Below are positions 32,256-44,274 of a DNA stretch of 44,274 nt, one piece after another. Origin of the DNA: Candidatus Omnitrophota bacterium (lineage in GTDB: Bacteria; Omnitrophota; Gorgyraeia; Gygaellales; Profunditerraquicolaceae); contig JAKPTF010000106.1 in NCBI GenBank assembly GCA_029571225.1, positions 1 through 44,274 on the forward strand, in the 5' to 3' direction. The position numbers and the translations under genes are program-made. Under the pieces are notes generated by a model. It was given only the letters and a program-made list of their open reading frames with translations, was not told where the DNA came from and did not search any database. How positions within the stretch are numbered: position 1 is the first letter of the stretch; each line of letters starts with the position of its first letter.

Positions 32256-32753
32256 TCATTCGCTGTTCTTTGCGGAAACGCCTTTGATATGTTTCTCGAC
32301 GTGCTGGAATTCCTCGGGCGTCAATATCCTGTTGAGGTCAAGCAGGACCAGAAGCCTGTCCTGAAGCTTGCCCACGCCCCTGATATAATGCTCAGGGACC
32401 TCGGTATCAACCAGGCTCGGGACGTCTTCGACGAATTCGGAAGGCAGGCGCAGGACCTCGGATACCGAATCCACGAGCATGCCAACCGTGTTATCCCCCA
32501 CCTCAACTACGATGATCCTGGTATTTTCGCCCCGTTCGTTCGCTTTGATGCCGATTCGTTTCGCAAGGTCTATGACCGCCAGGACCTGGCCGCGCAGATT
32601 AACCACTCCTTCTATGAAATCCGGGGCTTTAGGAAGATACGTGATCTGGACAAGGCGGACAATCTCCCGGACCTGGCTGATGTCAACGCCAAATTCCTCT
32701 TTTCCAAGAGTGAATACGACAAGCTGGTATTCTTTCTGTTTTTCAACAGCCAT
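32256..32753 (-). CDS. cheW: Chemotaxis adaptor CheW
   Basis: CheW couples chemoreceptors to CheA. The 165-residue protein is a single CheW domain: QLVVFTLGKEEFGVDISQVREI, the conserved region VVNLRGQVLAVIDLAKRIG, and GMLVDSVSEVLRLP. It has a somewhat extended C terminus (TPEEFQHVEKHIKGVS). It is the last che gene of the operon, 57-72 bases before the heme array. No receptor gene is in the window, so its partners are elsewhere. Confidence 0.95.
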   Translation of the reverse strand: MAVEKQKEYQLVVFTLGKEEFGVDISQVREIVRLVQITYLPKAPDFIEGVVNLRGQVLAVIDLAKRIGIKANERGENTRIIVVEVGDNTVGMLVDSVSEVLRLPSEFVEDVPSLVDTEVPEHYIRGVGKLQDRLLVLLDLNRILTPEEFQHVEKHIKGVSAKNSE

Positions 32754-32764
32754 AGGCCCCTCCC

Positions 32765-33373
32765 TTATTTGATATTGAGCGAGTCGAAAACTTTCTGCAA
32801 AGATTCCATCGTGGGAAACAGCAGAAACAGGCCGTTCAGGCGCAACCCTTTGATCGTGATATCCGTCTTGATATAGAGCGCCTCATCAGATTCCTCAGCG
32901 ATCTGTATGAAAATGAAATCCAGAATAGCCCCGATCATATCAAGCGCCATCGAAGGCGTGGAGATAGAAATCGTGAACTTGGTCATATCGGCCATGGCAG
33001 AAACATAGGACCCGCCGAGGATGTTGCAGACTTCCTTCAGCGCGGATTTGAACATCTCGTCGTTAAAATCCATTTCTTCCTTCGGCCTTGATAAAAGCGT
33101 TGCTGCGAGGAATTTGGCGTCCTCCGGAGGGAGCAGGAAGAAGATACGACCCCTGACATCCACCTGGACCTCCATGTCAAGGATAAAATACATCTCGTCT
33201 GGCCGTGCCAGGACGGTGCCGATATTCTCAAGAGGGACGAGGGTGACCTGCGGCACCGAAATCTCAACCTTGGATGCGAGCATATCAGCCAGCGCCGTAG
33301 CCGCCGTCGCCGACCCGATCGTGCCGATCTCCTTCAAAACATCCAGCTGATTATACGATAATTGCTCTGCCAT
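32765..33373 (-). CDS. CheC-family CheY phosphatase (one active site kept)
   Basis: CheC proteins dephosphorylate CheY and bind CheD; each of two sites uses an E-x2-N motif. In this 202-residue protein the first site reads LKEIGTIG, with the asparagine replaced by T18, while the second reads LKEVCNILGGSYVSAMAD, with E114 and N117 intact. It is therefore likely an active phosphatase with one site. The fold is well kept (VEISVPQVTLVP, DMIGAILDFIFIQI). AAGGAG lies upstream. It sits between cheB and cheW. It is the only one of three paralogs in the window with a complete site. Confidence 0.9.
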   Translation of the reverse strand: MAEQLSYNQLDVLKEIGTIGSATAATALADMLASKVEISVPQVTLVPLENIGTVLARPDEMYFILDMEVQVDVRGRIFFLLPPEDAKFLAATLLSRPKEEMDFNDEMFKSALKEVCNILGGSYVSAMADMTKFTISISTPSMALDMIGAILDFIFIQIAEESDEALYIKTDITIKGLRLNGLFLLFPTMESLQKVFDSLNIK

Positions 33374-33396: not shown

Positions 33397-34461
33397 TTAC
33401 CCGCGTACCCCGGCTTCAGCCGCGTTCACGAACCGCGCGATGGCATCCGGTATCTCCGATATCGGAAGGACCGCATCCACCACTCCCTCCTTGAAGACTG
33501 AACGCGGCATACCCCAGACAACGGATGACTTTTCATCCTGAATAATTACCGCGCCTCCGGCTTCCTTGACCTTGCGGCTGCCGTCCGCGCCATCCTTGCC
33601 CATGCCGGTAAGAACCACCGCGACGCAATTCTTCCCGAACACCTCTGCCGCGGAGAACATGGTAACGTCAATGGAAGGACGCACGAAATTGACGAGCGGG
33701 TCCTGGTTCAGATGGACGCGCACTGATCTTCTATCCCGGTCCAGCGTCATATGATACCCTGCAGGTGCCACCAGGATCTTTCCTTCAGAAAGCTCATCGC
33801 CTTCTTCCGCTTCTTTCGCGCGCATGCCTGACTGCCAGGAAATGCGTTCCGCAAACGACATGGTAAAACCCTTTGGCATATGCTGGACGATAAGAAAAGC
33901 TGCGGGCAATTTTGCGTTCAGGCCCTGAACGAGCTCAAGGATCGCCTTGGGACCGCCCGTAGAAGCTCCGATGACCACCAGGTTCCTGACCGCCGCCCCG
34001 GCCTCCGTCGAAGCTATCGCAGTACCGGCGCCCTGTGCCACAATGTATTTATCAAGGTTGACTTCGGCAGCCAGTTTGATCTTGGTGGTAATTTCTGCCT
34101 TTAATTTGTCAAGCCCGAGAGATATCTCTCCAGAAGGTTTTGCGATGAAGTCCACCGCCCCGAGCTCAAGCGCCCGCATAGTCGCGCTGGCACCGCTGCG
34201 CGTGTACGCTGAGAACATGATAATCCGCGTGGGGTGGAACTTCATGATCCTGGTAAGGACATCGATACCGTCCACGACAGGGAGGTTAAGATCCAGGGTA
34301 ACGACATCGGGGGAAAGGCTGACGATCTTGTCAAGCGCCTCCTGCCCGTCCTTGGCCTTACCGATCACCTCGAGAGCTTCATCGCTGTTGATTATGTCAG
34401 AGATCACTTTCCGCATCAGGAACGAATCATCCACAACCAAAACTGTTATCTTTCTATTCAT
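33397..34461 (-). CDS. cheB: Chemotaxis protein-glutamate methylesterase CheB
   Basis: CheB removes methyl groups from (and deamidates) receptors for adaptation. The 354-residue protein has an N-terminal receiver (phospho-acceptor D57, K109) and a C-terminal methylesterase with the catalytic triad S167 (GASTGG), H194 (IVQHMPKGFT) and D290 (GMGKDGADG). All key residues are present. It starts directly after the cheD stop. Its presence with CheR means true methyl-accepting receptors exist elsewhere in the genome. Confidence 0.97.
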   Translation of the reverse strand: MNRKITVLVVDDSFLMRKVISDIINSDEALEVIGKAKDGQEALDKIVSLSPDVVTLDLNLPVVDGIDVLTRIMKFHPTRIIMFSAYTRSGASATMRALELGAVDFIAKPSGEISLGLDKLKAEITTKIKLAAEVNLDKYIVAQGAGTAIASTEAGAAVRNLVVIGASTGGPKAILELVQGLNAKLPAAFLIVQHMPKGFTMSFAERISWQSGMRAKEAEEGDELSEGKILVAPAGYHMTLDRDRRSVRVHLNQDPLVNFVRPSIDVTMFSAAEVFGKNCVAVVLTGMGKDGADGSRKVKEAGGAVIIQDEKSSVVWGMPRSVFKEGVVDAVLPISEIPDAIARFVNAAEAGVRG

Positions 34462-34962
34462 TTAAACGACTTTCTCGCCCCAGGACACGGTCTTCACAAG
34501 AACCTTACCGGTCTCCGCATCAAGCTCGATAGTCCTTCCGAAAGTTCCGCCTACGTCTTCAACCAGTATTTTCAAGTTTAAATTTTTAAATATCTCGTGG
34601 GCCATATCTATGTTCTTCTGGCCGACGTTCAAAGCGCTGTCCGCGTTGATAAAACTGAACATATGCGCACCGCCGAATATCTTGATCTCATACCGCGACC
34701 GGAAACAGCCTTTCTTCTCGAGTTCCTCCATGGCCAGGGCAATGCCGGAGTTGACAAAACGGCTCGGATTGTTTTTGATCTTCGACCATTCCATATCCGG
34801 AAGCATCGGATGCACCATGGCGCCTGTCTTCTTAACCGGGTCCCAGATGGTTATGCCAAGACACGAGCCAAGCCCCCTGGTAATGAGCCGGTCCGGGGCC
34901 TGCGCAATCTCCATTTTGCCCATCTGGACTTCGATAAGATTACTCTCCATAACTCTGTCCAT
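34462..34962 (-). CDS. cheD: Chemoreceptor glutamine deamidase CheD
   Basis: CheD deamidates receptor glutamines and is bound by CheC. The 166-residue protein keeps the catalytic set: T28 and C34 in LITRGLGSCLGI, and H51 in AMVHPMLPD. NIDMAHEIFKNLNLKILVEDVGG is typical. The start overlaps the cheY stop (TAATG). The CheC-CheD pair suggests phosphorylation-dependent control of receptors as in Bacillus and Thermotoga. Confidence 0.95.
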   Translation of the reverse strand: MDRVMESNLIEVQMGKMEIAQAPDRLITRGLGSCLGITIWDPVKKTGAMVHPMLPDMEWSKIKNNPSRFVNSGIALAMEELEKKGCFRSRYEIKIFGGAHMFSFINADSALNVGQKNIDMAHEIFKNLNLKILVEDVGGTFGRTIELDAETGKVLVKTVSWGEKVV

Positions 34963-35333
34963 TAGCCGCCCAATGCACGCTTCACTGCCTCGATGACGCG
35001 TGACGGCTGGAATGGCTTCGTCACGAAGTCTTTTGCACCCGCCTGGATGGCCTCGACGACCAGAGAATGCTGGCCCATAGCGGAAACCATGATAATCTTT
35101 GCCTGCGCGTCGGCCTTGACGATTTCTTTGACCGCGCCGATGCCGTCGATCTCTTCGATCTTGGGCATAACAATGTCCATTGTCACCAGGTCAGGTTTAA
35201 GCTGTTGGTATTTGTCGATCGCATCCTTGCCGTTCTCGGCCTCTCCGCAGATCTCGATTCCTTCCTTCTTCAAAATGTCTGATAACATCCTGCGCATGAA
35301 GAGCGCATCGTCCACAACCAGCACACGTGCCAT
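34962..35333 (-). CDS. cheY: CheY-like response regulator with a three-residue loop insertion
   Basis: A 123-residue single receiver: acidic D8/D9, phospho-acceptor D53, S84 and K106. It is closest in style to Thermotoga CheY (MARVLVVDDALFMRRM, AKIIMVSAMGQHS, DFVTKPFQPSRV). After D53 it reads IVMPKIEEIDGIGAV, three residues longer than the usual MPEMDGIEAV. The same insertion occurs in the other CheY at 41965, so it is not an error. The loop lies next to the phosphorylation site, where phosphatases such as CheC approach. It is followed by cheD. Confidence 0.95.
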   Translation of the reverse strand: MARVLVVDDALFMRRMLSDILKKEGIEICGEAENGKDAIDKYQQLKPDLVTMDIVMPKIEEIDGIGAVKEIVKADAQAKIIMVSAMGQHSLVVEAIQAGAKDFVTKPFQPSRVIEAVKRALGG

Positions 35334-36257: not shown

Positions 36258-36521
36258 TCAATGCTGCGGATTGCGGCTGACCTTCAGGATCGCCTTCGTC
36301 AGCTCTTTGACCACATCGGCCTTGAACTGGGTCTCCTGCTCCGTCAGCTTTGTATAGAGGCGGCCGCGGTTGGTGATCACGTATTGCGGCGGCAGACGGT
36401 TCAGAGCCATTACCATAATGTCGTATTTGCATTTCTGGCATTTGCAGATATCGTCGCGCTCGGACAGAAGCATTTCCAGCTCGTCCTGGACGACGTCTTC
36501 CATATAATTCTGTATCTTCAT
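36258..36521 (-). CDS. ComFB-family protein
   Basis: An 87-residue protein of the late-competence ComFB family: IQNYMEDVVQDELEMLL, a C-x2-C pair in CKCQKCKYDIMVMALNRLPPQYV, and ITNRGRLY. AGGAGG lies upstream. ComFB-type domains have recently been reported as receptors for cyclic di-nucleotides, including c-di-GMP, so this may link the chemosensory operon to that second messenger; I infer this from the family only. It sits between the FtsA-like gene and cheR. Confidence 0.85.
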   Translation of the reverse strand: MKIQNYMEDVVQDELEMLLSERDDICKCQKCKYDIMVMALNRLPPQYVITNRGRLYTKLTEQETQFKADVVKELTKAILKVSRNPQH

Positions 36522-36537: not shown

Positions 36538-38676
36538 CTAATTTCTCTCCTCGAATACGATCCTGACCTGAGCGCCGTCGGCCACGCGGGTCGTGAAACC
36601 TGCAGGCGCGTCGTCAACAAAAAACCTCATGCGTTTGCCCAGGACCTTTGACGCATCTACGTCAATATAATTGAATATTTCCGAAAGCAGCACCTGATGC
36701 TGCTTTGAATAATACACGCGAATGTCTGCTCCGTCAACAAGAAATTCATCGGGCGACACCTCATGGCCGTTCATGAACACCTGAGCTTTTCGTATGCCTA
36801 TGCCAACGTCTTTGCCGTTCACGTTAACCGTGATCCTCTCAATGCCCTCGGGGACATCCACGACGTCCCGGATCCGGAAGAAACCGGGTTCTTCCATTCT
36901 GAATGAGATCACGTCGCCGGGTGCGACCGGGGCGGTAAACTCAGCGGGAATGCCGTTGAGGGTGAGCGTATAATTGCGCTGCGGGAGCACCCGCGGATTA
37001 TTGTTGATGTTGACCAGTATCTGCCGCTCAAGGCAATGGCTCGTGTCGATCCCCTTATGGCCCAGCACGCCCAGCACCGTCACGGGTTCCACGGTGATCC
37101 GCGCGCGGTCCGCAAGCGGGGTCTCGAAAGACACGGGAACGCCGTTCATCTTGACCGGCACAGGCACGGACACAAGCTCGTTGTTTAGAATGCAGCGCAC
37201 CCGTTGATGGCCCGCCACGTCCGCGACCGTAGCCGCGGCATCGCAGCCGTCCACCGCCTCGACAAGTTCAATACTGTCTCCGTCGCAGACCCGGGCTGTA
37301 AGGGATTCGGCCGGGACGCCGTTCACCGTGATCTTCGCAGGCTGGCCCATGGTGCCCTTGATCGTCTTGAAAACTCCGTTAACCTCTACGGTCAGGGCCA
37401 TTCCCATGCGCGGGTACAGCCGTTTCTGGCGGATGACGCCCGAGAGGCTCAACGCGCCGAGAATATCCTTTTTCTGAGAGAGATCAAGCATCTTGACGTT
37501 CTTGCCGTTAACCGTCACATTGATGAACTGCAGCCCCTGCCTGGCAAACGTCATCCGTGCTATACCTATAGGCGTCACCGCTTCCGGGCCGGTGAGCTTG
37601 CCGGTGGCATCGTCCAATCCCTTGATCGCGCGGGGAAGCCTTATGCCAACCTTCTCAGCGGGAAGGCCGCACAGGCCCGACAGTTCCTCAAGAAGCCCGG
37701 GAGTAAGCGCCCCGCCGCCTACTGCGACGACCGCCTGTGGAACCCCGCCGTTGAGCTCAAGAGCGGTTGCCGCTATCGAGGCCGCAAGCTTATGCACCGC
37801 AGGGCGGATCATCTCACGCAAACGCTGCGATTTGATCGTATGGCTGCGGTCCCAGATATCCTTATAACTTATCTCGTCGAGGACGGCGATCGAACGCTTG
37901 ATCCTTTCCCCGGTGTCGAAATCAACGACACAATGGCCACAGATGCATTCGGTGATCTCATCCCCTGCCTCCGGCACCATGCCATAGGCAAACACGACTC
38001 CGTCGCGGGAAAGCGCCAGGTCCGATGTCCCGGCGCCTATATCAACAAGAACAATATTGAGCCTGCGCATCTCCGCCGGAACGATGGCGTTCATCGCCGC
38101 GATCGGCTCCAGTGTAATGTTCATCGGCTCAAGGCCGGCGTGTTTAAGTACCGCGAAAATGCTGTCCAGAACCACCCTCGGCAGGAAGGTCGCAATAATC
38201 TCGACGCCGATAGTCGAGCCCTTGTGGCCTACCAGGTCCTGCAGCCGTTCCCCGTCCAGCTCGTAATACACCGGGCTGTAGCCGACGCAATAAAAATCCG
38301 ACAGGCCCGCGCCCGCTTCGGCGATGATGCGGCTTATCGCGTCAAGCTCGAGCGCCCGCACCATGTCAACTGATATCTCCTCGTACGCGTCCGCCTCATG
38401 CTCGAGTCGCACGGTGCGGGTGAGAAGATTCCTTCCGGCGACCGCGACGCCCGCGGACTGGAGCCTTCGGTGCAGGCGTTCTTCAAGCGCTGACTTGATC
38501 GCTCCCACGTTCTGAGCCACGGCCCGTATCGAGTGAACCTGGCCGTCGAGCATTGGGCGCGTCGCGTGCTCCCTCGTTTCGGCGTCTATTATGCGCAAGC
38601 CGCTACCGTCATCGACGGCGACGATACCCATGACCTTGCGGGTCCCTATATCAAGCGCGAAGATCCCGTTGCTCAT
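36538..38676 (-). CDS. FtsA-like actin-family ATPase with C-terminal beta-rich repeats
   Basis: A 712-residue protein. Residues 1-385 are an actin-fold ATPase of the FtsA type: phosphate 1 loop FALDIGTRKVMG, an FtsA-like 1C (SHS2) region near 85-165, phosphate 2 loop VDIGAGTSDLALSRDG at 211, and the adenosine-side VVAVGGGALTPGL at 317. Residues 385-712 have no FtsA counterpart. They hold about five copies of a short motif, V-NG-P---F-T-V-DGD-I-I, starting near 449, 508, 571, 632 and 685, spaced about 60 residues, which look like small beta-grasp or ubiquitin-like units. The membrane-targeting helix of FtsA is not evident. Its start overlaps the cheC stop by four bases, inside the che operon. 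Function unknown; it may polymerise and act on the envelope or pili. Confidence 0.8.
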   Translation of the reverse strand: MSNGIFALDIGTRKVMGIVAVDDGSGLRIIDAETREHATRPMLDGQVHSIRAVAQNVGAIKSALEERLHRRLQSAGVAVAGRNLLTRTVRLEHEADAYEEISVDMVRALELDAISRIIAEAGAGLSDFYCVGYSPVYYELDGERLQDLVGHKGSTIGVEIIATFLPRVVLDSIFAVLKHAGLEPMNITLEPIAAMNAIVPAEMRRLNIVLVDIGAGTSDLALSRDGVVFAYGMVPEAGDEITECICGHCVVDFDTGERIKRSIAVLDEISYKDIWDRSHTIKSQRLREMIRPAVHKLAASIAATALELNGGVPQAVVAVGGGALTPGLLEELSGLCGLPAEKVGIRLPRAIKGLDDATGKLTGPEAVTPIGIARMTFARQGLQFINVTVNGKNVKMLDLSQKKDILGALSLSGVIRQKRLYPRMGMALTVEVNGVFKTIKGTMGQPAKITVNGVPAESLTARVCDGDSIELVEAVDGCDAAATVADVAGHQRVRCILNNELVSVPVPVKMNGVPVSFETPLADRARITVEPVTVLGVLGHKGIDTSHCLERQILVNINNNPRVLPQRNYTLTLNGIPAEFTAPVAPGDVISFRMEEPGFFRIRDVVDVPEGIERITVNVNGKDVGIGIRKAQVFMNGHEVSPDEFLVDGADIRVYYSKQHQVLLSEIFNYIDVDASKVLGKRMRFFVDDAPAGFTTRVADGAQVRIVFEERN

Positions 38677-39293
38677 AACCCCACAATCTTAAGCATCTTG
38701 TTTACACTGTCAAGTTCAAGCAGAAATACGACGAACAGATCGATCTCGGTTTCTTCTATGACCATCTTGTTCTCAATGGGAAGGAGATAATTAACCCCTC
38801 CTTCGGACAGACGCCTGCCAAGCAATATGTTGAGCCTGTCCATCCGGTCAACGATCGTCTGCGGTATCGAAAGCATCATATTATGAAGCTCCAGCATTTG
38901 TGCAACCGCATTCAGGTATGCGCCGGCGAGTATATGGGAACTCTCCGAAAGCGCGGAAGCCTCCAGAAGGTTCAAAAGCTGGGTGGTCCCCGCAGGGCGC
39001 TTCATCAGTATATCGATCATCATGAGCGCGCTTTGCTGGGAATAGAGGGCCAGCATCCCGCCACGCAGAGCCCCGAGTATCTTAAGATCCACCGCAAGGC
39101 CGATATCCTCCGATTTCATGGAGAACGCCGCCGGAGACATCTGATCGCCCGAGAACAGGCTAACCTGAGGGACAGCAATCGAAACTCGTTTTCCCAGAAG
39201 CTGGCTTAACGCGGTCGCGGCGCTGCCCGATCCGATGGTGCCAATCTCGCGCAGGACATCAAGCTGATCGCTATTTAAAGCAATATTTTCCAT
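38673..39293 (-). CDS. CheC-family protein with both phosphatase sites degraded
   Basis: A 206-residue CheC homolog (LDVLREIGTIGSGSAATALSQLLGKRVSIAVPQVSLF). Both E-x2-N sites have lost the asparagine: T19 in the first (REIGTIG) and H120 in the second (LSESSHILAGAYLNAV). The fold-defining segments remain. It is probably not a CheY phosphatase and may bind partners such as CheD, CheY or the FtsA-like protein, whose gene overlaps its stop. AGGGGG lies upstream of the ATG. Confidence 0.88.
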   Translation of the reverse strand: MENIALNSDQLDVLREIGTIGSGSAATALSQLLGKRVSIAVPQVSLFSGDQMSPAAFSMKSEDIGLAVDLKILGALRGGMLALYSQQSALMMIDILMKRPAGTTQLLNLLEASALSESSHILAGAYLNAVAQMLELHNMMLSIPQTIVDRMDRLNILLGRRLSEGGVNYLLPIENKMVIEETEIDLFVVFLLELDSVNKMLKIVGL

Positions 39294-39302
39294 ACACGCC
39301 CC

Positions 39303-41294
39303 CTACTTTAATGACATGATATCCAGTATCAACGCTACTTTGCCGTCGCCCAGGATTGTCGCGCCGGCTATACCCTTGGTCCGCTTGATGAGCGAACCCA
39401 GAGGCTTTACGGCGATATCCTGCTCTCCCAGGACCTGGGATACGGCCAGACCCAGAGCCTTCTTGCCGAACTCGCAGATCACCAGCGAGATACGATCCCG
39501 GGATTCCTCTTTATCCCCGGGCCTGCTGGCGATTGCCAGCTCCTTGTCGAGCCTGATGATGGGGATAATCTCATCCCTCACTTTGACGACTTCGAAACTC
39601 TGAAGGACTTTGACATCGCGTATGTCGATCTTGATGGTCTCACGAATATTAACGAGCGGTATCGCGTATATCTCATGCTTGACCGAAACAAGCATTGCCT
39701 TGATAATGGCCAGCGTCAGAGGCAGCGTCAGGATGAATTTAGACCCCTCGTTGACCCTGGTCTCAAAATCAACCCTGCCGCCGAGATATTCGATCTTCGA
39801 TTTGACGACGTCGAGCCCCACGCCTCTTCCCGATATGTCCGTGATGGTCTGCGCGGTCGAAAAGCCCGGCATGGTAATGAGGTCCAGGATCTTCTTCTCG
39901 TCGATCGCGGCTGCGTCCGCTTCGGATATGATCCCGCGCTCAAGCGCTACCCGCTTGACCGCGTCCACGTCTATGCCTTTGCCGTCGTCGCCGACCTCGA
40001 TGCATATCTGGCCCTTCTGGCGGCTGACATTGATGAACAATTTCCCTTTCGGAGGCTTTTTCGCCTTTACCCGGACCTCCGGCTTCTCGATGCCGTGGTC
40101 AACGGCATTGCGCACCAGATGCAAAAGCGGATCGGAAATCTCGTCGAGCACGATACGGTCGAGTTCTATGTCGCCGCCGGAGATCGACAATTCGACGTCC
40201 TTGGACTGCTTACGGGCCACATCCCGCACGACTCGCGGGAACGCGTCTAGGACATACGCGACCGGCAGAAGCCTTGTCTGCATTACCTCGTCCTGCAGCG
40301 CCGATATCAGCCGATCCAGGCCAAAGCCGACCTCTTCGAGAGACTCGATCTTGTATGACTGAACTATCTGAAGCAGCCTGATCTTTGCAATAGCAAGCTC
40401 CCCCATCAGGTTCATGATCTTGTCAAGGCGCTCGACCGGAATGCGCATATTCTGGATCTTCTTTATATAGGCCGGAGACGCTACGGCCGAAGCCTTGGGT
40501 TGGCCGGCCTGTCCCGGGACCTGCGGAGCGCCGCTGCCAGCATCCGGTTCTGCATCTACCGCGCTAACCGTGATACGCTCGACATCAGAAAGTGTATTGA
40601 GTTCCTGCTGAAGCACCTGTTGCTGCTCATTGGTCGCCAGGACCAAATCGAAATCAAGGTCAAACGAACCCTCCTTCAACGCCGCCACGTCCGGATGCGA
40701 GACAACGACTTCGCCCATCCTGTTCAGGCTCGTGATGATCAGAAACGCCCGCGCCTCCTTCATGGCGCAATCCTTGACGAGGGTGACGCTGACGATAAAA
40801 ACGTTGGCAAAACGTTTTCTGAACTCGTTGATACGCCTCATCTCTTCGTCCGTAAGAGAAGGCGCGGTCTTCGAGGGCCTGCCGGGCTGCGGCTGCGCAG
40901 GCACTTCCTCTTCAGGAGCGGCGGAAAGGAATCTCTTGATGTCCTTAATCACCGGCTCGATGTCTATGACCGATTCCTTGTTTGCCTTGATCTCCTCAAA
41001 GAGCTGTTCGAGCAGATCGACGCCCTGAAAGAGGACGTCGACCGTAGCGGTGGTCATTTTCCTGCGCTGGTTGCGCAGTTCGTCAAGCAGATCCTCCATC
41101 TCGTGCGCCAGGTGCGACAGTTTATCAAAGCCCATGGTCGCCGACATGCCTTTGAGCGTATGGACGCAGCGAAAGATCTCATTGATGGAATTCTTGTCGG
41201 AGGGGTTTTCCTCGAGTTTCACGAGGCAATTGCTGATATTGACGAGGTACTCCTGGGATTCTGAAAGGAACAACTCTCGGTAACTATCTTGCAT
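39303..41294 (-). CDS. cheA: Chemotaxis histidine kinase CheA
   Basis: A 663-residue CheA with all domains: P1 with the phospho-histidine H45 (CVHTLKGMSATMGF), a CheY-binding P2-like region (about 160-240), P3 dimerisation with IPVERLDKIMNLMGELAIAKIRL (near 280-310), the P4 ATPase (HLVRNAVDHGIEKPE, GDDGKGID, GRGVGLDVVKS) and a CheW-like P5 (from about 525). It phosphorylates the CheYs and CheB. It is a plain class with one P1 domain. Confidence 0.97.
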   Translation of the reverse strand: MQDSYRELFLSESQEYLVNISNCLVKLEENPSDKNSINEIFRCVHTLKGMSATMGFDKLSHLAHEMEDLLDELRNQRRKMTTATVDVLFQGVDLLEQLFEEIKANKESVIDIEPVIKDIKRFLSAAPEEEVPAQPQPGRPSKTAPSLTDEEMRRINEFRKRFANVFIVSVTLVKDCAMKEARAFLIITSLNRMGEVVVSHPDVAALKEGSFDLDFDLVLATNEQQQVLQQELNTLSDVERITVSAVDAEPDAGSGAPQVPGQAGQPKASAVASPAYIKKIQNMRIPVERLDKIMNLMGELAIAKIRLLQIVQSYKIESLEEVGFGLDRLISALQDEVMQTRLLPVAYVLDAFPRVVRDVARKQSKDVELSISGGDIELDRIVLDEISDPLLHLVRNAVDHGIEKPEVRVKAKKPPKGKLFINVSRQKGQICIEVGDDGKGIDVDAVKRVALERGIISEADAAAIDEKKILDLITMPGFSTAQTITDISGRGVGLDVVKSKIEYLGGRVDFETRVNEGSKFILTLPLTLAIIKAMLVSVKHEIYAIPLVNIRETIKIDIRDVKVLQSFEVVKVRDEIIPIIRLDKELAIASRPGDKEESRDRISLVICEFGKKALGLAVSQVLGEQDIAVKPLGSLIKRTKGIAGATILGDGKVALILDIMSLK

Positions 41295-41338: not shown

Positions 41339-41950
41339 TTATTTGTTGCCGATGGCCCGCAGGATCAACTCGAAACCAGCAGGGTCCGGGATCAGGAAAA
41401 AATGCCCGGTGATGGACGATTCCGGCTGCTTGAATTCCGATTCGATCAGCAGGGCGAACAACGATTTACAGCTCAATTCTATAAGGATATAATCGACGAT
41501 GGCGCCAGCCATGTCTATTATGACCTCGGGCACGCGGGGAACAAGCCCCATGCCCACGAAACTTCCAAGCGCCCCGAGGTAAGCGTTTGAAAGGATGACG
41601 CCGACCTCTTTCAGCGCCGAGCGTTCTAACTCCGATATAACCGCGGTCTCGGACACCTGTTTGCCCGTCATCAAAGACGCCAGCGCCAGCGCATCCTTCT
41701 GGGAGAATATGAAGATGATGCTCGACGGGAGATCGCCCAAGACACGGAGCATAAGCCCTACTACCAATTGATCGTTGCCTCCGACCGCCTGCGGGACATC
41801 CTCGATGGGAAGGAACAGGATCCTCGGGACCACGATCGAGACCTTGCGGTCCAGAAGTTGCGAAAGCGCGGTCGCCGCGTTGCCCGCGCAGATCGTGCCG
41901 ATCTCCTTCAACGCGTCTTTCTGATAATCGTTAAGATGGACCTCTTCCAT
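41339..41950 (-). CDS. CheC-family protein with both phosphatase sites degraded
   Basis: A 203-residue CheC homolog (QKDALKEIGTICAGNAATALSQLLDRKVSIVVPRIL). The first site has T19 in place of asparagine, and the second reads LKEVGVILSNAYLGAL, with V118 where asparagine is needed. The glutamates E16 and E115 remain. It is probably a binding or scaffold protein rather than an active phosphatase. AGGAG lies before the ATG. It follows the first cheY and precedes cheA. Confidence 0.88.
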   Translation of the reverse strand: MEEVHLNDYQKDALKEIGTICAGNAATALSQLLDRKVSIVVPRILFLPIEDVPQAVGGNDQLVVGLMLRVLGDLPSSIIFIFSQKDALALASLMTGKQVSETAVISELERSALKEVGVILSNAYLGALGSFVGMGLVPRVPEVIIDMAGAIVDYILIELSCKSLFALLIESEFKQPESSITGHFFLIPDPAGFELILRAIGNK

Positions 41951-41964
41951 AAGAAGCGCTCCTG

Positions 41965-42336
41965 TCAGGCTCCCAACGCCTTGGCAACGGCATCGAGCAG
42001 CCTCTGCGGCTGAACCGGTTTGATGACGAAATCCAGCGCGCCTGCCCGTATCGCCTCAACGACAAGCGATTGCTGGCCAATGACCGAGCAGATGAGGATC
42101 CGAGCCTTGGGATCATGCCGTATGATCTGGCGCACCGCTCCTATTCCGTCGAGCTCATCCATCTTTGGCATCACGATGTCCATGGTCACCAGGTCAGGGC
42201 GGCACTCCTTGTATTTCTCAACAGCCTCTGTAGCGTTTGCCGCCTGTCCGCAGATCAGGTATCCATGCTCCTCCAGTATCTGCGAGATCATCCTGCGCAT
42301 AAACAACGCGTCATCAACGACCAGTATTCTCTGCAT
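41965..42336 (-). CDS. cheY: CheY-like response regulator, first gene of the chemosensory operon
   Basis: A 123-residue single receiver (from the ATG at 42336; a frame to 42372 crosses the promoter). Phospho-acceptor D53, S84 and K106 are present. It is a paralog of the CheY at 34962 and shares the extra three residues after D53 (IVMPKMDELDGIGAV). It lies directly behind the consensus promoter at 42361-42388. Confidence 0.95.
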   Translation of the reverse strand: MQRILVVDDALFMRRMISQILEEHGYLICGQAANATEAVEKYKECRPDLVTMDIVMPKMDELDGIGAVRQIIRHDPKARILICSVIGQQSLVVEAIRAGALDFVIKPVQPQRLLDAVAKALGA

Positions 42337-42360
42337 AAAGATAAAACTACCTTTATTAAG

Positions 42361-42388
42361 ATTATAAGGCACGAACGAGTTATGTCAA
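42361..42388 (-). promoter_or_regulatory. Consensus sigma70 promoter of the chemosensory operon
   Basis: On the minus strand a perfect -35 TTGACA (42383-42388) and a perfect -10 TATAAT (42361-42366) are 16 bases apart. Transcription would start near 42354, about 20 bases before the cheY start codon. It is the strongest promoter seen in the window and has no flagellar sigma28 character. Confidence 0.85.
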
Positions 42389-42505: not shown

Positions 42506-42922
42506 TTACGGACAGCACACACTCATGTTGATCACGCCTGTTCCGGGGTCATACACCGTTGGATCGCCCCAGTTTACTTTGGGATTCGATGTAGTCGATG
42601 CGTTGTCAGGCAACTTTCCGTCAGCGAAATATTCTTCGGCAAAATCAGTCGCGTTCGCGCTATAGTTAAGTTCATCATTAAGCGGGAAACCAGATGTCGT
42701 ATTAACGTCAATGCCCCCCGCGGTCGCTCCGGTGCTATTGACCTGATACTTTGCGTAAAAATTCGAAAGCGCGGTCCTTATCGCTCCTACGTTAGACTGG
42801 CACACTGCACGGTCTGCTTCATGTTTAAGGTCTATGAATTTCGGAATTGCGACTGCCGCAAGGATACCGATAATAACAATAACCATAACCAATTCGATAA
42901 GAGTAAAACCTTTTCTCGACAT
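42506..42922 (-). CDS. Type IV pilin / type II pseudopilin-like protein
   Basis: A 138-residue prepilin. The start at 42922 (GGAGG upstream) gives MSRKGFTLIELVMVIVIIG, with a short basic leader, the prepilin peptidase site G-F with Glu at +5, and a hydrophobic helix that anchors and polymerises the pilin. The globular part is short, with cysteines in DRAVCQSN and at the very end (SVCCP), which could form a disulfide. It may be a major pilin or a GspG/H-like pseudopilin. It has its own promoter and terminator, so it is a single-gene unit. Confidence 0.88.
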   Translation of the reverse strand: MSRKGFTLIELVMVIVIIGILAAVAIPKFIDLKHEADRAVCQSNVGAIRTALSNFYAKYQVNSTGATAGGIDVNTTSGFPLNDELNYSANATDFAEEYFADGKLPDNASTTSNPKVNWGDPTVYDPGTGVINMSVCCP

Positions 42923-42954
42923 ACCAACCACCTCCGTTTTAGGTTTATGTTTTG

Positions 42955-42982
42955 AGTTTATCATAGAGGGTCATTTTGTCAA
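42955..42982 (-). promoter_or_regulatory. Promoter of the pilin gene
   Basis: On the minus strand TTGACA (42977-42982), a 16-base spacer and TAAACT (42955-42960; four of six) precede the pilin start by about 30 bases. No riboswitch fold was seen in the short leader. Confidence 0.5.
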
Positions 42983-43000: not shown

Positions 43001-44274
43001 TTACCAGAGATTATCCTCAAGCCAGGCGTCGATCTGGTCGAGCCTGTTGTTGATCACGCGGCTACGGTCGGATCTGCGGCGCGGCCTTGACCTGCGCTCT
43101 CCGGACTTTTCTTCAAAAAAGGATGATTCTACCCCTCTTTTCTGTTCCAGGTCAACCTCCTCAAACGCCCCTTCTTCGCGGATCTTGCTCGATTCCTGCT
43201 CAATAAGCTGCTGTTTGATCTGCGCCGCGTATTCCCGCAATTCTTCTTCCTGAAGCTTTCTGTGCTCCTCCCGGGTCAATGCCTGCGAAACAGCGGCATC
43301 ATCCCGTGCCGCTTCCGGCGCTTTTGCCCGGGCGGTCGCAGGCTTTTCTGCGGCGGGCAATTGAAGCGGCCTTGCAGGTTCAAGTTTGCGAGCCTGCTGC
43401 TGTGATTCTTTTACAATCCTGAGCTCCTCTTCTTTACGCGCCTCCTGTTCTTTCAAACGCTCCTGTCTTTGCTTTTCCCGCAGGGCCCGCGCTTCTTCAC
43501 GAACCGTTTGAGCGCGTTTTTTTTCTTCTTCCTTTAGCCTGCGCTCTTTCTCTTTCTGTTCTGCGCGGAACGCAGCTTCCTTATCCTTCAGGGATTCTGT
43601 TCTGCCTGGCTGTTCTTCAGCAGGGGCCGCTGTCACCTTTTCCGGACCGGCGCCCTGTTGTGTTTGCGCCTTTGCGTGTTTCCGCTCGTCCCGCTCCTTT
43701 TTCGCAGCCTCCCGCACTTCCCTGCGCTTAACCAACGCCTCCTGGCGAGCCTTCTTGCGCTCGGCTCTCTCCTGCTCGGTTGACGCTATTTGTTCCTTGC
43801 GCTGTTTTTCCGCAGCCTGGCGCGCCTCTTCCCTGCTTCGGACAAGGCGCTGTTTCGCTGATTCCAGTTCCGCTGCCAGCTGTTTCTTCTCATCCTCTTT
43901 ACGCTTCAACTCATCACGAAGCTGCTCCTCCTTATGCAAACGCGCTTCTTCTTTCTTTTTTGCAAGCTGCTGCTTTACTGCCTCGAGCTTTTCGCTCAAT
44001 GCTTTCTTCTCGGCTCTTTTTTGGTCAAGCTGCTTCTGCAAACGGGCCCTATTCTCTTCAACAACGGATTGCCGCGCTGCATACGCCTCCTGCGCTTCAC
44101 GCTCTTTTTTTAAACGCGCTTCTTCTTTCTTCCGCGCAAGCTGCTGCTTTACTGCCTCGAGCTTTTCCATCAACTGTTTCTTCTCTGATTCTTTTCTGTC
44201 AAGTTCCGACTGCAGTCCGGCTATCTTTCGATCAACAGCGGATATCCTGGCCTGCTGCGCAGCCTGTTTTTTTT
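43001..44274 (-). CDS. Long charged coiled-coil protein (partial; 5' end outside window)
   Basis: The reading frame is open to the window edge, giving at least 424 codons to the stop at 43001. Nearly all of it is Lys/Glu/Arg/Ala/Gln-rich heptad sequence (EKLEAVKQQLAKKKEEARL, EKKQLAAELESAKQRLVRSR) with a proline- and alanine-rich break near the middle (GPEKVTAAPAEEQPG), then a less regular, arginine-rich C-terminal tail (RRSRPRRRSDRSRVINNRL). No signal peptide can be judged as the start is missing. I do not recognise a family; it may be a cytoskeletal or TolA-like spacer protein. A 56-base direct repeat lies inside it. Confidence 0.75.
   Translation of the reverse strand, partial: KKQAAQQARISAVDRKIAGLQSELDRKESEKKQLMEKLEAVKQQLARKKEEARLKKEREAQEAYAARQSVVEENRARLQKQLDQKRAEKKALSEKLEAVKQQLAKKKEEARLHKEEQLRDELKRKEDEKKQLAAELESAKQRLVRSREEARQAAEKQRKEQIASTEQERAERKKARQEALVKRREVREAAKKERDERKHAKAQTQQGAGPEKVTAAPAEEQPGRTESLKDKEAAFRAEQKEKERRLKEEEKKRAQTVREEARALREKQRQERLKEQEARKEEELRIVKESQQQARKLEPARPLQLPAAEKPATARAKAPEAARDDAAVSQALTREEHRKLQEEELREYAAQIKQQLIEQESSKIREEGAFEEVDLEQKRGVESSFFEEKSGERRSRPRRRSDRSRVINNRLDQIDAWLEDNLW
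43938..44167. repeat. Pair of 56-bp direct repeats, period 174 bp (58 codons)
   Basis: Bases 43938-43993 and 44112-44167 match at 52 of 56 positions. They encode the repeated EKLEAVKQQLAxKKEEARL block of the coiled-coil protein. The four differences are clustered together. High DNA identity suggests a recent internal duplication of a 58-residue unit. Confidence 0.85.

Follow-up and report, generated by a model that had tools for sequence, protein, structure and literature searches.

A predicted FtsA-type actin-like protein with β-grasp repeats encoded in the chemosensory operons of Omnitrophota

A gene for a protein predicted to join an FtsA-type actin fold to five β-grasp repeats lies inside a chemosensory operon of Candidatus Omnitrophota (contig JAKPTF010000106.1), and a profile search of a phylum sample of 384 Omnitrophota genomes recovered the family in 23 of them, in every case near cheA or cheC. 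For convenience we call FtsAx the gene found at positions 36538–38676 of the 44,274-nucleotide stretch of DNA analysed here (the window), as well as its product. FtsAx represents a real, apparently uncharacterised family of the FtsA/PilM superfamily, which in Omnitrophota is recruited into a non-flagellar chemosensory system. Literature searches of titles and abstracts, incomplete in their coverage, that combined FtsA with CheC or chemotaxis, FtsA-like or PilM with chemosensory, and FtsA with beta-grasp found no protein like FtsAx.

The FtsAx gene and its operon

The open reading frame lies on the minus strand, starts with ATG and encodes 712 amino acids; its closest relatives, with 80% identity, are found in Candidatus Omnitrophota genomes. 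Its start overlaps the stop codon of a cheC gene (CheCb) by four bases (ATGA), and comFB and cheR come after it, exactly as described in an earlier note made from the DNA alone; the same type of overlap occurs at four other loci. Gene order then continues with cheY, cheD, cheB, cheC and cheW, and upstream of FtsAx stand cheC, cheA, a further cheC, the second cheY and a gene for a pilin-like protein that carries a prepilin methylation motif. The operon holds a complete set of components, namely CheA with its Hpt, ATPase and CheW domains, CheW, CheB, CheR, CheD, two CheY and three CheC, and chemoreceptors (MCPs) are present in 18 of the 20 carrier genomes tested. The features of the locus are the following:

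37549..38676, minus strand: predicted FtsA-type actin-fold ATPase core, residues 1–376 (TIGR01174 alignment over 5–372, AlphaFold model against FtsA crystal structures, nucleotide-site conservation)
36541..37545, minus strand: C-terminal arm, residues 378–712, a β hairpin (381–417) followed by five β-grasp-like repeats (arm model, fold search, ThiS matches)
37243..37401, minus strand: repeat R1, residues 426–478 (hhalign to R2–R5 95–98%; ThiS match 448–477)
37075..37215, minus strand: repeat R2, residues 488–534 (hhalign to the other repeats 84–98%)
36871..37035, minus strand: repeat R3, residues 548–602 (hhalign to the other repeats 94–98%)
36697..36852, minus strand: repeat R4, residues 609–660 (hhalign to the other repeats 90–98%; weak Ub-Mut7C match 634–660)
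36541..36642, minus strand: repeat R5, a shorter unit, residues 679–712 (hhalign to the other repeats 84–95%; DSSP of the model)
38673..39293, minus strand: cheC (CheCb), overlapping FtsAx by four bases (Pfam CheC 1.4e-11; ATGA; motif table)
39303..41294, minus strand: cheA, with Hpt (HTLKG), P2, dimerisation, ATPase and CheW domains (Pfam, motifs)
41339..41950, minus strand: cheC (CheCa) (Pfam, motif table)
41965..42372, minus strand: second cheY (ORF, DIVMPK receiver motif)
36258..36521, minus strand: comFB, putative cyclic-dinucleotide receptor (Pfam ComFB 1.3e-26; function of relatives from PMC12313861)
35367..36248, minus strand: cheR (ORF translation, conserved order)
34962..35333, minus strand: first cheY (ORF, receiver motif)
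34462..34962, minus strand: cheD (ORF translation, conserved order)
33397..34461, minus strand: cheB (ORF translation, conserved order)
32765..33373, minus strand: cheC (CheCc) (Pfam CheC 1.5e-21; motif table)
32256..32753, minus strand: cheW (ORF translation, conserved order)

Just upstream of the operon, the window also encodes a pilin-like protein (42506–42964) and a charged, coiled-coil-like protein without a Pfam match (43001–44173); one other locus (L004) holds both genes at the same position.

The actin-like core

The core is matched in Pfam by MreB_Mbl (2.3e-7) and FtsA (5.6e-7). The NCBIfam ftsA profile (TIGR01174) aligns with residues 5–372 (7.3e-25) at 87.8 bits, below its cut-off of 175.85, and the PilM profile TIGR01175 gives 44.2 bits, far under its cut-off of 133. 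An AlphaFold model that includes the core has a mean pLDDT of 87, and the modelled core compares with FtsA crystal structures of the PDB with TM values of 0.78–0.84 by target length, the next nearest fold being PilM (0.66–0.80). Among 82 members of the family, the phosphate-1 (D9, G11, T12), phosphate-2 (D212-x-GAGT-x-D219) and adenosine (G320, G321) residues reach 97% conservation or more, and the family has a signature of its own, H37-x2-R40-x-M42-x2-G45-Q46. The complete FtsA-type nucleotide site proposed in the earlier note thus holds, and the N-terminal 376 residues are predicted to form an actin fold of the FtsA type with this site intact.

FtsAx and the FtsA of cell division have the whole fold, over about 380 residues, and the nucleotide site in common. 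FtsAx differs in falling below the TIGR01174 cut-off, in its own signature, in its five-repeat β-grasp arm and in the lack of a C-terminal amphipathic membrane-targeting helix, since in both model and sequence the chain ends in a β strand (703–710 of 712).

The C-terminal arm

Five similar motifs about 60 residues apart, resembling β-grasp modules, had been pointed out in the arm in the earlier note, and both parts of this description stood up. In profile–profile comparisons with hhalign, all ten pairs of R1–R5 were recognised with 84–98% probability, far above the 0.4% that none of 30 column-shuffled comparisons exceeded, which rules out a chance origin of the repeats; their spacing is about 60–66 residues. 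The hairpin at 381–417, considered as a sixth repeat, reached at most 3% and is not detectably a copy. At the loose threshold used for Pfam, ThiS matched 13 of 13 family members (best 9.6e-11, E up to 0.5), Ub-Mut7C nine and TGS eight. A separate model of the arm (pLDDT 86.9) found its best fold matches in tandem ubiquitin-like proteins, a bacterial multi-ubiquitin protein and ISG15 (E = 1.7e-4 and 1.7e-3); the global TM of these matches is low (about 0.15), so that the support covers the fold of the units and not their arrangement. Searching the arm sequence against solved structures returned nothing significant. On the Pfam matches and the fold search, we assign the repeats to a predicted β-grasp fold of ThiS/ubiquitin-like type. 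Unlike tandem ubiquitin-like and ThiS proteins, with which the arm has this repeat fold in common, FtsAx has its repeats fused to an actin ATPase, and it ends in VFEERN without the Gly-Gly tail of ThiS and ubiquitin.

Distribution and linkage to che genes

A 24th match (G206) was left out of the carrier counts as that genome's own canonical FtsA in the dcw cluster. CheA is encoded by 23 of 23 carriers, compared with 84 of the 384 genomes for any CheA at the same threshold. The window and all twenty loci fetched with their flanks place FtsAx in a che operon, and in the two carriers whose flanks were not fetched (G152 and G194) FtsAx and cheA are side by side on one contig. Two layouts occur, cheA-(cheC)-FtsAx-comFB-cheR-cheY-cheD-cheB-cheC-cheW and cheW-cheY-cheC-cheD-cheB-cheA-cheC-FtsAx; the linkage is kept across families f1/f5 and f35 despite a differing gene order. 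The gene directly upstream is cheC at 16 of 19 readable loci and cheA at the other three; downstream come comFB-cheR or a topA-like gene, and never pilN/pilO directly. Genomes of family f37 keep cheA-comFB-cheR-cheY-cheD-cheB-cheC with neither FtsAx nor the extra cheC, and the cheC-FtsAx pair therefore looks like an optional inserted module. One sequence titled Planctomycetales (L011, SBBM01000019.1) has an operon of the Omnitrophota type and a protein inside the Omnitrophota clade, and is probably misnamed or misbinned.

Outside Omnitrophota, in the phylum to which [Eubacterium] yurii belongs, 168 of 299 genomes gave relatives in the profile search, and the family is common in Clostridia. These FtsA-domain proteins of 590–870 amino acids are full-length homologues; of 60 examined, no fewer than 59 have R1, R2 and R5, and some are without R3/R4. 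The che linkage sought by a genome survey thus holds for every Omnitrophota carrier but not for Clostridia, where the 60 loci sampled lie mostly away from che genes; the ancestral function of the family therefore need not be chemosensory. A cheR gene is nevertheless found within 1.5 kb of FtsAx at 12 of the 60 loci and at none beyond 3 kb in the same flanks (Fisher p = 6e-5, for loci that are not independent, with at least four changes of the cheR trait on the family tree). In this tree the Omnitrophota copies group into a single clade (SH-aLRT 100) among the clostridial ones, the outgroups being very long and the rooting and direction of transfer unsure. Six clostridial loci have the order tagA-FtsAx-ctsR-mcsA, most with mbl and a flgG-like gene before tagA; at five loci (L102, L108, L109, L113, L120) the cluster reads mbl, flgG-like, tagA, FtsAx, ctsR, mcsA, mcsB-like, clpC-like, and ties the family to another actin (Mbl) and to cell-wall genes.

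CheC motifs and output context

CheC phosphatases use the Glu and Asn of two copies of a D/S-x3-E-x2-N motif. In the window, CheCb has lost the Asn at both sites (E..T, E..H), as has CheCa, and CheCc keeps the second motif (E..N). The second-site Asn is missing from 13 of 13 CheC proteins encoded upstream of FtsAx, replaced by His, Ser or Tyr, many of them retaining the first, and it is kept in 16 of 16 distal CheCc proteins of window-type operons. Since CheCa has lost it too, this loss is not specific to the CheC adjoining FtsAx. Owing to the missing catalytic Asn residues, CheCb may be a receiver of CheY-P instead of its eraser, comparable in this respect with the FliM/FliY/CheC family of switch and phosphatase proteins; unlike FliM/FliY systems, the FtsAx genomes are without FliG (none of 20 carriers).

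The earlier note had argued for an output other than a flagellar switch, at the envelope, pilus base or division site; the absence of FliG agrees with the first part, and of the targets the division site is the least likely. PilT is encoded in 20 of 20 carriers, and type 4a pili are reported for nearly all Velamenicoccia genomes of Omnitrophota (PMC10066038); pili being general in the phylum, PilT permits a pilus target and neither singles it out nor proves it. Some che loci adjoin pilC/pilM/pilN-like, pilin-like and PilZ-type genes. In cyanobacteria, pilus biogenesis is under the control of ComFB relatives, which bind c-di-AMP and c-di-GMP (PMC12313861), and by this analogy the ComFB neighbourhood is consistent with a pilus or surface output. 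Near two che operons (L043, 15142–15975; L045, 11667–12515), inspection by eye of the sequences suggests proteins with a pilus-ATPase N-terminal domain and a PilZ-like part, a possible cyclic-di-GMP input.

Proposed role of FtsAx

Tentatively, we favour the reading that FtsAx is a nucleotide-binding FtsA/PilM scaffold with a β-grasp arm, dedicated to a non-flagellar chemosensory system, coupled to CheY-P/CheC and acting on the envelope. The genomic link with che genes is observed; the mechanism, including any filament, is inferred and would run as follows. The nucleotide state of the actin core would be coupled to CheY-P, probably via the neighbouring CheC, and in the window's lineage CheCb, its catalytic Asn residues lost, might, like FliM, bind CheY-P and leave it intact. 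The arm would dock on an envelope target, for which the neighbouring genes suggest the type IV pilus machinery as the likeliest, steered jointly with the putative cyclic-dinucleotide receptor ComFB. A fuller version, in which CheY-P acts through a degenerate CheC receiver on the assembly of an FtsA-like scaffold or filament, and this in turn steers the envelope or the pilus machinery of cells with neither flagella nor FtsZ, appears rather doubtful.

FtsAx could instead act in the adaptation or phosphatase branch, its core and arm binding and regulating CheR, CheC or CheD in signal termination and driving no effector. Its place beside cheC, comFB and cheR in Omnitrophota and the lone cheR at the 12 clostridial loci favour this; sister genomes, however, have a complete operon without FtsAx, and for a regulator of this step a scaffold of 712 residues with an FtsA fold would be large; we know of no precedent. 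We regard this role as a less likely yet serious rival. The same judgement applies to a cytoskeletal organiser by which arrays of chemoreceptors and CheA would be placed or clustered at the envelope: the core matches filament-forming FtsA structures and the gene shares an operon with cheA and cheW, but sister genomes with a close CheA do without FtsAx, the C-terminus has no membrane helix and, to our knowledge, the arrays of model bacteria form without any such protein.

Still less probable is that FtsAx is an analogue of PilM in a pilus or secretion platform and merely shares the che operon. PilM belongs to the same superfamily, its fold is the next nearest and pil genes neighbour several che loci, yet FtsAx falls far below the PilM cut-off, has no pilN/pilO directly after it and bears an arm without PilM counterpart, and a separate PilM-like protein is encoded in the window's genome.

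FtsAx and cell division

A second division FtsA, to which FtsA as the best curated family match would point, is largely refuted and very improbable. The window's genome has a canonical ftsA after ddl-ftsQ (G000:C101), and FtsAx is in the che operon, outside the dcw cluster. A separate FtsA, which the earlier note had proposed looking for, was found in 20 of 20 Omnitrophota carriers tested, 18 over the cut-off, one just below it at 169 bits and one only as a fragment; FtsAx itself stays below the TIGR01174 cut-off in all 20 (at most 120.9 bits) and has no C-terminal helix. FtsZ, the partner of FtsA, was detected with TIGR00065 in none of 29 Omnitrophota genomes, and the tubulin/FtsZ domain PF00091 in two of the 384, neither a carrier, while 13 of 14 control genomes were positive in both searches. 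Because no FtsZ is detectable in these genomes, FtsAx cannot anchor it, and the analogy with an FtsZ anchor drawn in the earlier note fails.

The tubulin/FtsZ domain thus went undetected in 382 of 384 genomes; its only matches are L166 (G290:C130), L168 (G290:C77) and L167 (G198:C10), of which the two in G290, one strong and one weak, may reflect contamination or a divergent tubulin relative. Omnitrophota loci keep ddl-ftsQ-ftsA, with murC-murB before where seen, and ftsZ is missing after ftsA (G000:C101 (L162), L160, L161, L163, L164). A study of 2016 left the FtsZ question open from three genomes, one of them with FtsZ (PMC5147048). An FtsA without FtsZ in Omnitrophota would be remarkable and merits its own study. 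In some Omnitrophota, pilT follows the canonical ftsA directly or past a response-regulator gene (L160, 2026–5392; L161, 1225–4595; L071, 1603–3917), an arrangement that recalls the pilT-ftsA-ftsZ operon of Clostridium perfringens (PMC6958937).

Finally, a chance or inherited bystander association with che genes is scarcely credible: the Omnitrophota copies are one clade and their events not independent, but 23 of 23 carriers have FtsAx beside che genes, the linkage persists in different gene orders in f1/f5 and f35, the four-base cheC overlap recurs at five loci including the window, and Clostridia have a separate cheR link.

Significance

The chemosensory outputs known to us are flagellar switches, pilus motors, cyclic-dinucleotide enzymes and small polarity proteins. 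A dedicated actin of the FtsA superfamily in a che operon would amount to an output or organiser of a new kind. The clostridial family, large and apparently unstudied, would also gain its first function, and cultured species that can be used for tests are among its carriers. For the Omnitrophota that carry FtsAx, with neither flagella nor FtsZ, our results suggest that the sensory system may work not through a flagellar motor but through a scaffold linked to the envelope or to pili.
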